The translations under genes were made by a program, and so were the position numbers. The notes under the pieces are model-generated. The model made no database searches. It was not told where the DNA came from and saw nothing but the letters and a program-made list of their open reading frames with translations. This document shows positions 16,403 through 56,259 of a stretch of DNA of 64,000 bases, piece after piece (the stretch's first letter is position 1; every line of letters begins with the position of its first letter). The stretch spans positions 1-64,000 of the forward strand of contig CANPYY010000001.1 of assembly GCA_947588675.1 (NCBI GenBank), in the 5' to 3' direction. Source of the DNA: an uncultured Lachnospiraceae bacterium (lineage in GTDB: Bacteria; Bacillota; Clostridia; Lachnospirales; Lachnospiraceae).

Positions 16403-18853
16403 CTATAGTGAAAAAGCAATTTTATCATCTGTACATGTCACCTTTACATTAGAATCGCGATATATTTTTCCTGCAAGAAGTTCATCTGAAAGCACATCCT
16501 CAATCTCAGTCTGTATTGCCCTGCGTACAGGCCTTGCCCCATAATCTTTATCAAAACCGTTCGCCGCAATATGCTCATATACCGCATCATCAATACAAAG
16601 TTCAATCCCCAGTTGCTCTTTAATACGTTTGCAAAGTCCTGAAATAAGTATCTTTGCAATATCTTTTATATTTTCTTTGGTCAGCGAATGGAATACGAGT
16701 ATTTCATCTATACGGTTAATAAATTCCGGTTTAAATATCTTTTTAACTTCTTCCATTACACCGTTTTTCATTCTTTCATAATCTTCAGCCTCGTCCCTTT
16801 CTGATGAAAAGCCAAGAAGTTTAGGAGCGGCAATCCTTTGCGCGCCGGCATTTGATGTCATAATTATAATTGTATCTTTAAAACTTACATTCCGCCCCTG
16901 GGAATCCGTAACATGTCCATCCTCAAGAATCTGTAACAGTATATTAAATACATCGGGATGCGCCTTTTCTATCTCGTCAAAAAGAATTACAGAATAAGGT
17001 TTACGCCTTACTCTCTCGCTTAACTGTCCGCCTTCTTCATATCCCACATATCCCGGAGGAGAACCTATCATCTTTGATACGCTGTGTTTTTCCATATATT
17101 CAGACATGTCAACACGTATAATATCGTTCTCATCACCAAATACCGCTTCGGCAAGCGCCTTGGAAAGCTCTGTCTTTCCTACTCCTGTAGGTCCTAAAAA
17201 GAGAAACGAGCCAATCGGTCTGTTCGGATTTTTAAGTCCTACCCGGCCCCTTCTTACTGCTTTCGACACCGCATTTACCGCTTCATTTTGTCCCACAACC
17301 CTCTTATGGAGCGTTTCTTCAAGCTGTTTAAGTCTTTCGGTTTCAGCCTGCTTTAATCTCTTTACCGGTATTTTGGTCCATGCGGCAACTACATCTGCAA
17401 TTTCATCTTCAGTAACGTTCAAATCACCATTATCATCTGAGTTCTTAGCTCTTTCTTTTTTCAGTTTATCAAGCTTCTGCTGTATTTCACCCTGCTTTCT
17501 TTTTATTTCGGAAGCATACGTATAATCACCACGCGTAAGCGCAGCTTCTTTTTCTTTTTCAAGCTGACGGTTTTTAGTTTCATTTTCCTGTATTTCCGGA
17601 GACGCCGATACTATACCTATCCTTACCATTGACGCCGCCTCGTCCATTGCGTCTATCGCCTTGTCGGGAAGAAACCTGTCATTTACATATCTTGCAGTCA
17701 GCTTTACGGCAGCGTCTATAGCGCCGTCAGTTATAATTACATTATGATGTTCTTCATAACGCGGTCTGAGCCCCTTTAGTATTTTAATGCTTGAAAGTTC
17801 ATCCGGTTCTTCTATCATTACCGGCTGGAAACGTCTTTCAAGGGCGGCATCCTTTTCAATATTTTTGCGGTATTCATTTGTAGTAGTCGCACCTATTATC
17901 TGAATTTCTCCCCTAGCTAAAAACGGCTTAAATATATTTGAGGCATCTATTGCGCTTTCTGCTCCGCCCGCTCCAATGATGGTATGAATTTCATCTATGA
18001 ACAAAAGAATATTGTCATTACTCATTACCTCATTTAAAACCTTTTTCATTCTTTCCTCAAATTCACCACGGTACTTTGTACCTGCAACCATACCGGAAAG
18101 GTCAAGCGTAACAACTCTTTTTCCCATAAGCATAGGCGGTACATTTCCATTTACAATGTTTATCGCAAGTCCTTCCGCTATTGCCGTCTTACCTACGCCG
18201 GGTTCTCCAAGCAGACATGGATTATTTTTCATTCTCCTGCTAAGTATCTGTACAACGTTCTGTATTTCCTTTTCGCGTCCTATAACGGGGTCAAGCCTGC
18301 CTTCCTTCGCATATTCGGTAAGGTCCCTGCTGTATCTGTCAAGCGCAGGCGTAACAGATTTTCCTTTGGAACCTTTCTTGCTTTTCTCCGCAATATACTC
18401 GTTCCTTCCCATCGCGCTGTCATAGCCAAGCGCAACCATACAGTCCATATACATTCTGGATTTGTTCATATTCATTGCCTCAAGCAGCTTATAGGCGGTA
18501 GTATCGTCAGCCTTTATGACCGCAATCAGCATATGTTCTGTTCCGACAACTTTTGATTTAAGTCTTTTTGCTTCTTTCTGCGAAGCCTCAAGAAGTTTTG
18601 CCGCCCTTGGCGTATATTTTCCGTCATCCGGACTTTTGCCCTTTCTTCCCGAATCAATAATATTCGCGGCAGTTTCCATAATCTTTACTCTGTCAACGCC
18701 ATTGGCTGCAAGTATCTCCGCAGAAGTTCCCTGACATGCCATAAGTCCCATAAGTATATGCTCTGTGCCAATATTTCCTTCTGCAAATTTATATGCTATG
18801 TCCTCTGCTATTAAAAGTGCCTGTCTGGCACTGTCGGTATAATTCAGTCCCAT
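16403..18853 (-). CDS. clpC: ATP-dependent Clp protease ATPase subunit ClpC
   Basis: 816 residues. N-terminal Clp-N repeats (1-145), first AAA+ domain with GEPGVGKT (about 217-224), a UVR-like middle region (about 405-465, TRGDYTYASEIKRKQGEIQ) that in known ClpC binds MecA, second AAA+ domain with GPTGVGKT (about 545-552), and a D2-small domain. ClpC unfolds substrates for ClpP and depends on adaptors; a mecA gene lies 36 kb away in this window. The usual ctsR-mcsA-mcsB genes are absent upstream; instead a GntR-type regulator precedes it by 45 bp. AGAGGAA site. Confidence 0.95.
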   Translation of the reverse strand: MGLNYTDSARQALLIAEDIAYKFAEGNIGTEHILMGLMACQGTSAEILAANGVDRVKIMETAANIIDSGRKGKSPDDGKYTPRAAKLLEASQKEAKRLKSKVVGTEHMLIAVIKADDTTAYKLLEAMNMNKSRMYMDCMVALGYDSAMGRNEYIAEKSKKGSKGKSVTPALDRYSRDLTEYAKEGRLDPVIGREKEIQNVVQILSRRMKNNPCLLGEPGVGKTAIAEGLAINIVNGNVPPMLMGKRVVTLDLSGMVAGTKYRGEFEERMKKVLNEVMSNDNILLFIDEIHTIIGAGGAESAIDASNIFKPFLARGEIQIIGATTTNEYRKNIEKDAALERRFQPVMIEEPDELSSIKILKGLRPRYEEHHNVIITDGAIDAAVKLTARYVNDRFLPDKAIDAMDEAASMVRIGIVSASPEIQENETKNRQLEKEKEAALTRGDYTYASEIKRKQGEIQQKLDKLKKERAKNSDDNGDLNVTEDEIADVVAAWTKIPVKRLKQAETERLKQLEETLHKRVVGQNEAVNAVSKAVRRGRVGLKNPNRPIGSFLFLGPTGVGKTELSKALAEAVFGDENDIIRVDMSEYMEKHSVSKMIGSPPGYVGYEEGGQLSERVRRKPYSVILFDEIEKAHPDVFNILLQILEDGHVTDSQGRNVSFKDTIIIMTSNAGAQRIAAPKLLGFSSERDEAEDYERMKNGVMEEVKKIFKPEFINRIDEILVFHSLTKENIKDIAKILISGLCKRIKEQLGIELCIDDAVYEHIAANGFDKDYGARPVRRAIQTEIEDVLSDELLAGKIYRDSNVKVTCTDDKIAFSL

Positions 18854-18898: not shown

Positions 18899-19270
18899 TT
18901 ATTTTCCCCATTCTTCAAATATTATATCAATAAGTTCATGTATTTCATCTCTTGATATATCTTTACATACAGCCTGCGCCATAAGTACCCTGAGCGTACG
19001 TTTAAGCTCGTTCATGGCATTAATCTTATCGGGGTTTAAAGATATTACCGCGCCTTTTCTCCTGTCCAGTGTAAGGTACCCCTCCTGCCTGAGTATTGAG
19101 TATGCTTTATTCACCGTATGCATATTAATACCTATTTTATCCGCAAGCTCCCTTACCGACGGAAGATTATCGCCTTCCTGTATCTCCCTTGCAGCTATCT
19201 GCATAATTATCTGATTGCAAAGCTGTACATATATGGCTTCCTCACTGTTAAAATCTATAGAAATGTACAT
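18899..19270 (-). CDS. GntR family regulator, YtrA-like
   Basis: 123 residues. Winged helix of the GntR family at residues 10-75 with LPSVRELADKIGINMHTVNKAYSILRQ-type recognition helices (LADKIGINMHTVNKAY) and RRKGAVIS in the wing. The C-terminal helical part is only about 45 residues, the short dimerisation tail of the YtrA subfamily. YtrA-type repressors often control envelope-stress ABC transporters, and none is adjacent. It sits between the membrane cohesin-like gene (12 bp) and clpC (45 bp), so it may regulate this operon. GGAGG site. Confidence 0.88.
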   Translation of the reverse strand: MYISIDFNSEEAIYVQLCNQIIMQIAAREIQEGDNLPSVRELADKIGINMHTVNKAYSILRQEGYLTLDRRKGAVISLNPDKINAMNELKRTLRVLMAQAVCKDISRDEIHELIDIIFEEWGK

Positions 19271-49989: not shown

Positions 49990-50418
49990 TTATCCTTCTA
50001 TTTGTCTTATCCGGTTAATATGTCTTTCATCGTTTGAAAATTCCGTATTAAGGAACGTATCCGTAATTTTTACTGCAAGTCCCGGGCCAACAACCCTTGC
50101 TCCCATTGCCAGTATATTGGCGTCATTATGCTCCCTTGTCGCCTGTGCGCTGAAACAGTCATGACATACTGCCGCGCGTATTCCTTTAAATTTATTTGCC
50201 GCAATGGAAATACCTATTCCCGTACCGCATATAAGTATTCCCCTGTCACACTCTCCCGAAAGTATCGCCCGCGCAACTTTTCCGGCGTATACCGGATAAT
50301 CGCATGACTCCTCGGTATAAGTACCGTAATCTTTGTATTCCAGTCCCTTATCTTTAAGATAAGCTATAATTTCCTGCTTTAACCCGAATCCTCCGTGGTC
50401 ACTTCCTATTGCTATCAT
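49990..50418 (-). CDS. rpiB: Ribose-5-phosphate isomerase B
   Basis: 142 residues. IAIGSDHGGFGLKQEI at the N-terminus, GILICGTGIGISIAANKF with the catalytic Cys (about 66), and AVCHDCFSAQATREHNDANI define RpiB. It interconverts ribose 5-phosphate and ribulose 5-phosphate, and some members act on allose or galactose phosphates. It overlaps the YwlE-like gene by 4 bp, as in Bacillus ywlE-ywlF. Confidence 0.95.
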   Translation of the reverse strand: MIAIGSDHGGFGLKQEIIAYLKDKGLEYKDYGTYTEESCDYPVYAGKVARAILSGECDRGILICGTGIGISIAANKFKGIRAAVCHDCFSAQATREHNDANILAMGARVVGPGLAVKITDTFLNTEFSNDERHINRIRQIEG

Positions 50419-50903
50419 TTATTACCGCCTCCATTTGTATTATTTTCATTTATTTCATTTTTAAATTTGGTAACGACCTCCTGCATCACCTCATACATAT
50501 CCTCATAACACGCCTCATATATATCCATTTCCTCACCATACGGGTCCAGAAGTTCATCATCATTTCCTACATACTCTTTTAACGTATATACCGGCCCTTC
50601 AAATCCATAGTCTTCAATAATCTTTAATTTATCCGTGAATCCCATTGTAAGTACAAGTACGTTTCCTATAAGGTCCTCTTTCGTAAGCTGGACTGCCCGT
50701 TTAGAAGCGAGTTTTATTCCATGTACTCCCAACACTGTTTCTATTTTGGGATTGTATGGTTCTTCAAATAACACAACCAGTCCTCTGGATACAACTAAAA
50801 CCTCTTTATCTGCGTCTGAATACAGGTGCAGAAATATTGCTTCTGCCATAGGACTTCTGCTGGTATTGCCGTTTCCGACAAAAACCACCTTGTCATATTT
50901 CAT
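50415..50903 (-). CDS. YwlE-like low-molecular-weight phosphatase homolog lacking the catalytic cysteine
   Basis: 162 residues from the ATG at 50901-50903 (GAAGGG upstream). The fold and position between tsaC and rpiB match YwlE, the protein-arginine phosphatase of Bacillus. But the P-loop reads VFVGNGNTSRSPMAEA where the family has VCTGNTCRSPMAEA: Gly10 replaces the nucleophilic Cys and Ser15 the second Cys, while Arg16 and the distal Asp in LLDPYGEE remain. Phosphatase activity by the known mechanism should therefore be lost, although substrate-phosphate binding may survive. Coding sequence is otherwise intact, so it is not an obvious pseudogene. A regulatory or binding role is possible. 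Confidence 0.85.
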   Translation of the reverse strand: MKYDKVVFVGNGNTSRSPMAEAIFLHLYSDADKEVLVVSRGLVVLFEEPYNPKIETVLGVHGIKLASKRAVQLTKEDLIGNVLVLTMGFTDKLKIIEDYGFEGPVYTLKEYVGNDDELLDPYGEEMDIYEACYEDMYEVMQEVVTKFKNEINENNTNGGGNK

Positions 50904-50917
50904 AAATAACCCTTCTT

Positions 50918-51970
50918 TCAAACCTTTAGAATCCTGTGTCCTGCCGCCTTTATGATTCTGTTCATAATGGCATCTCCCAGCCCCTCATTTGAAAAACCCT
51001 CTATGAATATATGCTTTATTTTACATTCGTCCATCTTTCTAAGCACGGCATATAAATTATGCGCTATAGTAATCTCATCTTTTCGTGAACCGATATACAT
51101 GACGGTTCCGTAATTATATCTCCCCCTGTTTTCAATTGTAGTAATAACGCCTACCGTATCTTCATCATACGTCCTTACGAGTTCATTAATTTTATCAGTA
51201 ACATCTGACATATTTCCTTCAATTACAGTAAGTTCACCCTCAGGCGCATAATGCCTGTACATCATTCCCGGCGCTTTTGGCCTTATATCATCTCCCGCCT
51301 TATTATCTATTGCGGGGTCCCTTAACACATCTCCCAGAATATCATCAAGCATTTTCTGATTCACATATCCCGGTCTTAGTATAACCGGCGCCCCGTCCGT
51401 CAAATCCACAATTGTAGACTCAATACCGATATCCACTTTTCCGCCGTCAAGTATAATATCTATCTTCCCCGCCAAATCTTTAGCGACATGCTCTGCAGAC
51501 GTAGGGCTTGGTTTTCCCGATTTATTAGCGCTTGGCGCCGCTATGGGAACCTTTGATTCCCTTATAAGTGAAATTGCTATAGGATTGTCAGGAAGCCTTA
51601 TTGCTACAGTATCCAGACCTCCTGTAGTTTCGTACGGAACAACGCTTTTCTTTTTTAATATCATAGTAAGCGGCCCCGGCCAGAACCTGTCTGCCAGTAT
51701 GCGCGCAGTTTCCGGCACTTCGCGCGCCAGCATATATATTTCATTAAATTCCGATATATGGACAATAAGAGGATTATCCGACGGTCTTCCCTTTGCTCCG
51801 TATATTTTCTTTGATGATTCGGGATTAAGCGCATTCCCGCCAAGACCATATACCGTTTCAGTCGGAAAAGCAACAAGACCGCCTTTTTTTATAACCTCCG
51901 CCGCCTCTTTTATATAATCATATTCACTTTCCGACACTTCTTCACTGATTTTATAAATACGAGTTTTCAT
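50918..51970 (-). CDS. tsaC: Threonylcarbamoyl-AMP synthase, Sua5 type
   Basis: 350 residues. YrdC domain (1-210) with GGLVAFPTETVYGLGGNAL, KGRPSDNPLIVHIS and PIAAPSANKSGKPSPT; C-terminal Sua5 domain (220-350) reached by a linker with KAPGMMYRHYAPE. It makes threonylcarbamoyl-AMP for t6A37 in ANN-decoding tRNAs and is normally essential. First gene of the tsaC-ywlE-rpiB-proC operon and divergent from the amidase gene. Confidence 0.95.
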   Translation of the reverse strand: MKTRIYKISEEVSESEYDYIKEAAEVIKKGGLVAFPTETVYGLGGNALNPESSKKIYGAKGRPSDNPLIVHISEFNEIYMLAREVPETARILADRFWPGPLTMILKKKSVVPYETTGGLDTVAIRLPDNPIAISLIRESKVPIAAPSANKSGKPSPTSAEHVAKDLAGKIDIILDGGKVDIGIESTIVDLTDGAPVILRPGYVNQKMLDDILGDVLRDPAIDNKAGDDIRPKAPGMMYRHYAPEGELTVIEGNMSDVTDKINELVRTYDEDTVGVITTIENRGRYNYGTVMYIGSRKDEITIAHNLYAVLRKMDECKIKHIFIEGFSNEGLGDAIMNRIIKAAGHRILKV

Positions 51971-52116
51971 CATTGCTCCGCTTCATTATTCTACATACTT
52001 ATACAAATATATATAATACACCAAATATCACCTTTAGTCCAGTAAATATATGTCATATATATTTTAAGATTCTAATAATCTATATTAAATAATAATAATA
52101 ATAAAGGTTAAAAACT

Positions 52117-55464: not shown

Positions 55465-56259
55465 ATGAAAATCGAAAAAATAAGCGACAACCAGATAAGG
55501 TGTACTTTAAGCCATCAGGATTTAGTTGAACGTGAAATTAAAATCAGTGAACTTACTTATAGTTCGGAAAAAACCAGGACTCTGTTCAAAGATATGATGC
55601 AGCAGGCTTCCTATGAGTTTGGTTTTGAAGCCGACAACATACCTCTTATGATTGAAGCAATTCCTGTTTCAATGGAAACGCTGATTTTAGTCATAACAAA
55701 AGTTGAAGATCCCGATACACTTGATAATACATTATCAAAATTCTCACTTAATTCGGACGATAATAATGACGGAACTTATTACGATGAAGATGAAGAAGAA
55801 CGCATTAACGCTAAGATGTTTAGCAAATTCAGCCATATTGCAAACATACTGGACATGGATTCAGAAGATGACGAATACGCTGAACCGGAAGATACCAAAG
55901 AAACTCTCGTATTAAACAGTGACAGAAAGACTATGTCTACAATACCCGCATCTTCCGTTGAAAATTCCTTTACCCGGATTTTCTCTTTCACCAGTCTTGA
56001 TAATGCCACACAGTTTGCAACGTATACAAGGGGCATGTTTACCGGTTCTAACCAACTGTATAAAAACAGTACGGCGCAAACTTATCTCCTTGTTTTAAGA
56101 AATGACGGAGAAGATACAGATGATTTAGTCAAAGTATGCAATGCCGCATCGGAATTTGGCTCAATAGAAAATGTATCCTATGTTTCCGCATCACATATTG
56201 AAGAACACTGCGACCTGATAATTGGCGAGAATGCTTTACAGGTACTTGCAGCATTATAG
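55465..56259 (+). CDS. mecA: Adaptor protein MecA family
   Basis: 264 residues from the ATG at 55465 (GGAGG at 7 bp). The N-terminal substrate-binding domain begins KIEKISDNQIRCTLSHQDLVE and includes MMQQASYEFGFEADNIPLM; an acidic linker (about 100-145) leads to a C-terminal domain (about 165-264) that in MecA binds the ClpC middle region. MecA recruits substrates and triggers ClpC assembly. clpC is in the same window. Monocistronic, with its own promoter and terminator. Confidence 0.92.
   Translation: MKIEKISDNQIRCTLSHQDLVEREIKISELTYSSEKTRTLFKDMMQQASYEFGFEADNIPLMIEAIPVSMETLILVITKVEDPDTLDNTLSKFSLNSDDNNDGTYYDEDEEERINAKMFSKFSHIANILDMDSEDDEYAEPEDTKETLVLNSDRKTMSTIPASSVENSFTRIFSFTSLDNATQFATYTRGMFTGSNQLYKNSTAQTYLLVLRNDGEDTDDLVKVCNAASEFGSIENVSYVSASHIEEHCDLIIGENALQVLAAL

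Follow-up and report, generated by a model that had tools for sequence, protein, structure and literature searches.

A predicted YwlE-type pseudophosphatase encoded beside tsaC in an uncultured Lachnospiraceae bacterium, and the recurrent loss of the phosphatase site across its family

The low-molecular-weight (LMW) protein-tyrosine phosphatases (Wzb, YfkJ, human ACP1) have an intact catalytic cysteine, and their superfamily fold (PF01451) is common to the protein described here. Pseudophosphatases, the catalytically dead relatives of phosphatases, are known mostly from eukaryotes; as in these, the nucleophile of our protein is lost while the fold is conserved and selection acts upon it, but unlike in the known cases the loss was repeated many times inside one bacterial family and is tied to tsaC. 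Within the open-licence PMC papers covered (judged from their titles, the openings of their abstracts and counts of terms) we met no bacterial LMW-PTP pseudophosphatase, and neither a Cys-less YwlE in Lachnospiraceae nor a fusion of Sua5 to an LMW phosphatase (LMWP) domain was described there. The closest characterized relative is the arginine phosphatase YwlE (B. subtilis, PDB 1zgg/4kk3/4etn; G. stearothermophilus, 4pic; S. aureus PtpB), in which, according to passages of PMC8001253, a Thr at loop position PX5 selects phospho-Arg (S. aureus PtpA has Ile where YwlE has Thr) and an Asp serves as general acid. Furthermore, passages of PMC7546277 report that the B. subtilis McsB/YwlE pair sets the stability and level of TsaD (the enzyme that follows TsaC in t6A formation) via phospho-Arg282 and ClpCP, by which YwlE is functionally tied to t6A. 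TsaC/Sua5 itself is encoded directly beside the gene studied here, and relatives of that gene carry Sua5 and LMWP in one chain; the family passages of PMC10321239 and PMC9654439 name Sua5 fusions with Kae1-like domains, and an LMWP domain was not met in them.

The gene lies in a window of 64,000 nucleotides (the whole stretch of DNA that was analysed) at the start of contig CANPYY010000001.1, in which the following features bear on its reading:

16403..18853, minus strand: clpC, with neighbouring ORFs that include no mcsA or mcsB
49990..50418, minus strand: rpiB (PF02502), whose ATG overlaps the ywlE stop codon; a neighbour to which no share in the function is ascribed
50415..50903, minus strand: predicted ywlE-type pseudophosphatase gene, 162 aa from the ATG (ORF and translation, Pfam, fold)
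50535..50546, minus strand: DPYG with the general-acid Asp120 (codons read)
50745..50789, minus strand: conserved motif S39-K53, SRGLVVLFEEPYNPK (family consensus SRGLVVLFPEPxNxK, core FxEPxNxK)
50850..50879, minus strand: P-loop VGNGNTSRSP, residues V9-P18 (codons read, relatives compared)
50918..51973, minus strand: tsaC/sua5, threonylcarbamoyl-AMP synthase (YrdC PF01300 and Sua5_C PF03481), directly upstream; the proposed partner

The ywlE-type frame opens with an ATG at 50903, codes to 50418 and stops at 50415-50417 (minus strand; an alternative in-frame TTG at 50921 would add 6 aa), and its product begins MKYDKVVFVGNGNTSRSPMAEAIF. Residues 8-17 read FVGNGNTSRS, with Gly10 (GGA, 50874-50876, minus strand) in place of the nucleophilic Cys and Ser15 (AGC, 50859-50861, minus strand) in place of the second loop Cys, while the loop Arg16 (AGA, 50856-50858, minus strand) and the general-acid Asp120 (GAC) are retained. 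These codons bear out the original prediction, which had called both cysteine replacements and the survival of the phosphate-binding Arg and the Asp. The C-X5-R loop is thus left with Gly where its nucleophile should be; Thr14 occupies the phospho-Arg selectivity position PX5, and the loop contains no acidic residue. By its Pfam match (LMWPc, PF01451, 70.1 bits against a cut-off of 23.2) the protein is an LMW phosphatase homologue, and its AlphaFold2 model (pLDDT 91.5, pTM 0.87) found YwlE structures as the four best Foldseek matches in the PDB (TM-score by query 0.81-0.82). A PDB ranking with a profile built from 69 relatives placed 4egs (an LMW phosphatase from T. tengcongensis whose deposited name is RpiB) first and six YwlE entries at ranks 2-7, and NCBIfam yielded just two tyrosine-phosphatase models (Wzb and PRK11391), both far under cut-off. 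By fold and gene place, the protein belongs to the YwlE branch of the LMW-PTP fold: it has in common with YwlE the fold, the loop Thr, the Arg, the Asp and the position beside tsaC and rpiB, and it differs from YwlE in lacking the nucleophilic and the second loop Cys, in coming from a genome in which McsB was not found, and in carrying a family-specific FxEPxNxK segment. Judged from its sequence, it is predicted to have, in all likelihood, no phosphatase activity. It displays both traits of a pseudophosphatase, namely the loss of a catalytic residue within a conserved fold and retention across species by selection.

Within the genus, the orthologue was present in all ten genomes searched (the assembly of strain V9D3004 among them), with Gly at the nucleophile position, Arg and Asp in 10/10 and Thr at the selectivity position in 8/10; an identical Gly in ten genomes rules out a sequencing or assembly error at the window codons, which we discount as good as entirely. 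Rescue by an unmodified YwlE paralogue was likewise rejected, as the other LMW phosphatase of the same genome (contig C7, 9399-9833, also met as locus L042 4400-4834, plus strand) has an intact loop of the Ile-bearing tyrosine type (CYGNICRS). Nei-Gojobori dN/dS amounted to 0.10-0.13 among the three closest members of the genus and to 0.07-0.24 among six others for the pairs with estimable dS (9/10 genomes, G002 left out, in two comparison groups; values for 14 of the 18 pairs, with most dS > 1 and the other 4 saturated). Values near 0.1 demonstrate purifying selection on the ywlE-type frame, in agreement with the earlier claim of an open and selected gene, and seven congener pairs elsewhere (one of them intact and McsB-positive) gave 0.007-0.13. 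Taken together with the survey that follows, the genomic observations that were to have overturned the prediction (a sequencing error, an unmodified paralogue, a change limited to one strain) did not occur, and the clade-wide loss that it had asked to be checked holds for the genus and well beyond it.

We surveyed 396 Lachnospiraceae genomes (at least 80% completeness, evenly drawn from a larger group) with a profile of 30 orthologues, and obtained orthologue-grade matches (E 3.2e-28 or better) in 188, of which 187 had a readable loop (G238 was left out); the weaker matches (E 7.6e-18 and worse) were taken, unread, as tyrosine-type paralogues, and all 15 tyrosine-type paralogues that were read from Lachnospiraceae genomes carry CxGNICRS. 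The orthologues were read at 150 places in 149 genomes and in 39 further genomes, and the P-loops were compared over 161 rows (160 genomes) plus 39 more genomes. The nucleophilic Cys is retained in 68, the Arg in 146 and the Asp in 94 of the 187; all three occur together in 33 (in none of the 39 lower-scoring added genomes), and 154 lack at least one, by which a loss confined to the strain or the genus gives way to a rule across the family. The nucleophile was replaced by Ser (59), Asp (30), Gly (12), Ala (12), Thr (3), Val (2) or Glu (1). On a quick, simple-model tree of 207 rows (loop and DPYG columns excluded), there are at least 17 changes between intact and non-intact states and at least 47 of the nucleophile letter, counts that carry no direction by themselves; since the GNT-type relatives in other families of the order are intact in 14/14, the direction is most simply one of loss. 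We conclude that catalytic-site loss among Lachnospiraceae YwlE orthologues is clade-wide, recurrent and selected. One genome (G067) holds two closely similar Cys-less copies (L176 and L191) on two contigs, representing either a duplication or mixed strains.

The original prediction had paired the dead phosphatase with an absence of mcsAB beside clpC, reasoning that without an arginine kinase the phosphatase is not needed. Beside clpC, no mcsA- or mcsB-like gene was indeed recognized among ORFs of at least 60 aa (judged by eye from the letters), and the next frame upstream (18899-19270, minus strand) looks, again by eye, GntR-type, not CtsR. The genome-wide check that it proposed turned out as expected: McsB (PF00217) was not found in the organism's own assembly (95% complete), and all ten genus genomes were negative (0/10), in a search that matched 95 of the 396 Lachnospiraceae as positive control and never matched the 14 built-in control genomes. 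ClpC retains both GTEH motifs of its N-domain, which we take to hold the phospho-Arg-binding Glu residues; such motifs are probably too widely kept to be decisive. Near the tsaC operon the window also encodes a MecA-type ClpC adaptor (55465-56259, plus strand; PF05389, 207 bits), and adaptors of this type may be the main feed into ClpC in a McsB-less genome.

Across the family, an intact triad was found in 19/39 McsB-positive as opposed to 14/148 McsB-negative genomes (Fisher 2e-7), an association that a phylogenetic regression still recovers with the tree allowed for (p 0.0077); for the strict pattern (CxGNTxR plus Asp) the figures are 18/39 and 2/148, and one of these two McsB-negative genomes (G430) is 86% complete in about 620 contigs, with a congener (G159) that has McsB. 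The Cys by itself showed no association with McsB once the tree was allowed for (p 0.55), and an independent-pairs test of McsB against YwlE state on the starred branches comprised just 5 pairs and had no power. As 20/39 McsB-positive genomes are non-intact too, and in view of the result for the Cys, we rejected the simple rule by which absence of McsB would equal a dead YwlE. The McsB-negative Lachnospiraceae retain the gene in 149/301 genomes, with a non-intact product in 134 of the 148 readable ones; the reasoning of the original prediction therefore accounts for the lost catalysis (as seen in the triad association), but not for the retention of the protein. In a further 56/95 McsB-positive genomes a YwlE orthologue of this type is missing, meaning that YwlE is not always needed alongside McsB and that the arginine kinase commonly occurs without the phosphatase known to act against it.

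In the McsB-positive genomes the kinase itself differed between the two YwlE states. Among the 30 of 39 orthologue-bearing genomes in which McsB was read (two of the 19 intact ones, G033 and G193, and seven later-added ones were left out), the first Glu of NEEDH is lost in 9/13 with non-intact YwlE as compared to 0/17 with intact YwlE, and the Cys of the SCP motif is kept in 1/13 and 15/17, respectively. At these 13 loci (L240-L252) the NEEDH and SCP losses suggest weakened or changed arginine kinases, where for NEEDH we presume an arginine-kinase residue numbering; the active-site passages of PMC8370763 do not give the numbers of the catalytic Glu residues of McsB. At the level of sequence, dead YwlE together with altered McsB reads as a probable joint decay of the arginine-phosphorylation system. 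Outside the family we sampled one genome from each of 24 other families of the order, finding McsB in 18 and a GNT-type YwlE in 14, all 14 with intact Cys, Arg and Asp and all 14 with McsB; of the remaining four McsB-positive genomes, one has a GNICRS-type protein and three have nothing, and the six McsB-less ones gave no GNT-type match (three tyrosine-type, three nothing). In these 24 genomes outside Lachnospiraceae, the phosphatase is thus found only alongside the kinase.

If the active site decays, the remainder of the protein does not. Around the consensus SRGLVVLFPEPxNxK, single residues are almost fixed among the 187 orthologues (Gly 185, Phe 186, Glu 180, Pro 187, Asn 175, Lys 176), and the same holds for a Gly (186) and a Tyr (183) further along; the Pro following the Phe is less constant (144), and the window protein has Glu there. 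The complete FxEPxNxK occurs in 161/187 orthologues, 31 of the 33 intact proteins among them, and for 92 Cys-less proteins of the first set of genomes the most conserved columns were those of the FxEPxNxK region and a few core residues, not those of the loop. The 14 other-family relatives are devoid of the motif, their segment reading LSVLYPQGANEK, IFVSYSSGANEK and similar. Being common to intact and dead members, FxEPxNxK most simply arose before the losses, and its distribution shows that the segment is separable from catalysis.

The genomic setting is similarly stable. As the original prediction had it, the gene keeps its place between tsaC and rpiB: tsaC lies directly upstream in 192/199 Lachnospiraceae rows (of the other seven, three are within 1.4 kb of a sequence end), and rpiB follows within 700 bases downstream of the domain in 116/199. 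TsaC is upstream in 6/8 other-family relatives as well, where the order tsaC-ywlE-rpiB is likewise seen; the linkage is therefore ancient, and adjacency by itself is weak evidence. Beyond adjacency, 24/199 rows encode TsaC and LMWP in one frame (YrdC, Sua5_C and LMWP; 503-562 residues), requiring at least 11 changes on the tree and exceeding the two fusions to RpiB (p 0.0005). With the LMWP part of one fusion as query, 639 proteins were matched, and the best 120 of them (a listing that leans towards relatives of the query) comprised 115 with Sua5, Sua5_C and LMWPc and 4 more with Sua5_C and LMWPc, all 120 bearing Ser at the nucleophile; source names of fusions among the matches listed include Mediterraneibacter, Muricomes and Clostridium sp. 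C105KSO13. One match (P0184) joins the LMWP domain not to Sua5 but to PF18152 and PF00793, and is possibly a chimeric gene model; we take these two to be DAHP-synthase-type domains. Non-intact proteins showed no excess of fusions over intact ones (p 0.57 for the first 149 genomes; 21/165 and 3/33 overall), none was found in the window's own genus, and an AlphaFold2 model of a Sua5-LMWP fusion reached a pTM of 0.67.

Putting these lines together, we tentatively read the window gene as encoding a pseudophosphatase that may well be a non-catalytic partner of the TsaC/Sua5 encoded directly upstream, a reading to which we give somewhat less than even weight and whose partner step is the conjectural one. 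It is favoured because the nucleophile is lost while selection is kept, FxEPxNxK is near-fixed, and tsaC is both constant as a neighbour and recurrent as a fusion. According to this scenario, loss or weakening of McsB arginine phosphorylation would have made Cys, Arg and Asp superfluous, while a binding role would have preserved the rest of the protein; the FxEPxNxK segment could be the binding surface, arisen while the enzyme was still active, with Sua5 or the t6A machinery as its presumable counterpart. A broader version, possible yet on balance improbable, is that the YwlE lineage repeatedly became a non-catalytic subunit or third domain of Sua5, such that the link between YwlE and t6A known from B. 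subtilis, once enzymatic through TsaD, would persist physically after arginine phosphorylation decayed. Two further observations count against a partnership with Sua5. Sua5_C is present in 380/396 genomes and the orthologue in 188/396, which means that Sua5 is not dependent on it (of the 208 orthologue-less genomes 20 were inspected, and none of the 20 had an LMWP domain beside tsaC, the best chance match having E 0.5); in roughly half of the family Sua5 does without the protein. Moreover, a fusion may reflect mere neighbourhood, given the existence of others in the same region: YwlE domains with altered loops are fused in frame to RpiB at L216 (G267) and L222 (G236), and at L293 (G090) TsaC/Sua5 is fused in frame to a protein that by its letters is Upp-like (uracil phosphoribosyltransferase); in relatives, L294 and L309 for example, the upp-like gene comes next.

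The original prediction had proposed instead a non-catalytic role such as the binding of phosphorylated proteins. In a reader of this sort, for phospho-Arg, phospho-Tyr or other phosphorylated proteins, Gly10 would open the pocket and Arg16 still hold the phosphate. In favour of such a reader, Arg has survived more often than either of the other catalytic residues (111/130 of the Cys-less proteins retain it), the window's own loop is free of acidic residues, and a YwlE C7S crystal with a phosphorylated active-site serine (4kk4, by its title) suggests that the Ser forms could hold phosphate. Against it stand the failure to find an arginine kinase in the genus, the loss of Arg in 41/187 orthologues, and an Asp or Glu inside the loop in 120/165 non-intact proteins (including 8/10 of the genus) as opposed to 4/33 intact ones; the strongest constraint falls on FxEPxNxK, not on the loop, and the strongest gene linkage is to tsaC. 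This proposal is consequently weakened, and we regard it as doubtful, not as the favoured role. Equally doubtful is a general chaperone-type or regulatory scaffold with some other fixed partner (ClpC or its adaptors, the ribosome, a metabolic enzyme), for which the tsaC linkage would be mere inherited gene order. The shared order in other families, the lack of the orthologue in roughly half of the genomes surveyed (almost all of these with Sua5) and the presence of ClpC and a MecA-type adaptor in the same window would suit such a scaffold, but linkage to tsaC outlasts that to rpiB, and the 24 one-chain fusions are with TsaC.

We hold it to be quite unlikely that the gene is a decaying relic, retained for now since its frame couples the translation of tsaC and rpiB. 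The start/stop overlap with rpiB, the deletion of the gene in other genomes and the loss of catalytic residues in many lineages are compatible with decay; the low dN/dS within and outside the genus and the motif retained across 187 genomes are not, the gene is kept in 83/199 rows in which the 700 bases downstream yielded no rpiB, and the deletions elsewhere imply that its loss is harmless to the operon. Activity through an alternative nucleophile is very improbable. The fold, Arg16 and Asp120 are retained and the second loop Cys persists in 6/9 other species of the genus, but the window protein lacks both loop cysteines, Gly10 offers no side chain that could serve as one, and the family has lost the Asp in 93/187.

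For the family as a whole, roughly four in five orthologues lack part of the triad, and a YwlE-type gene in Lachnospiraceae can therefore not be assumed to encode a working arginine phosphatase. Database names conceal this loss: the single Cys-less member whose name could be read is labelled 'hypothetical protein', and those fusions among the matches listed that bear a name are called just threonylcarbamoyl-AMP (or threonylcarbamoyladenylate) synthase. We consider that the orthologue set constitutes a natural experiment on how a phosphatase decays after the loss of its kinase and on what of it stays useful, and that it suggests a connection of arginine phosphorylation with the t6A modification of tRNA, and predicts a new domain of Sua5.
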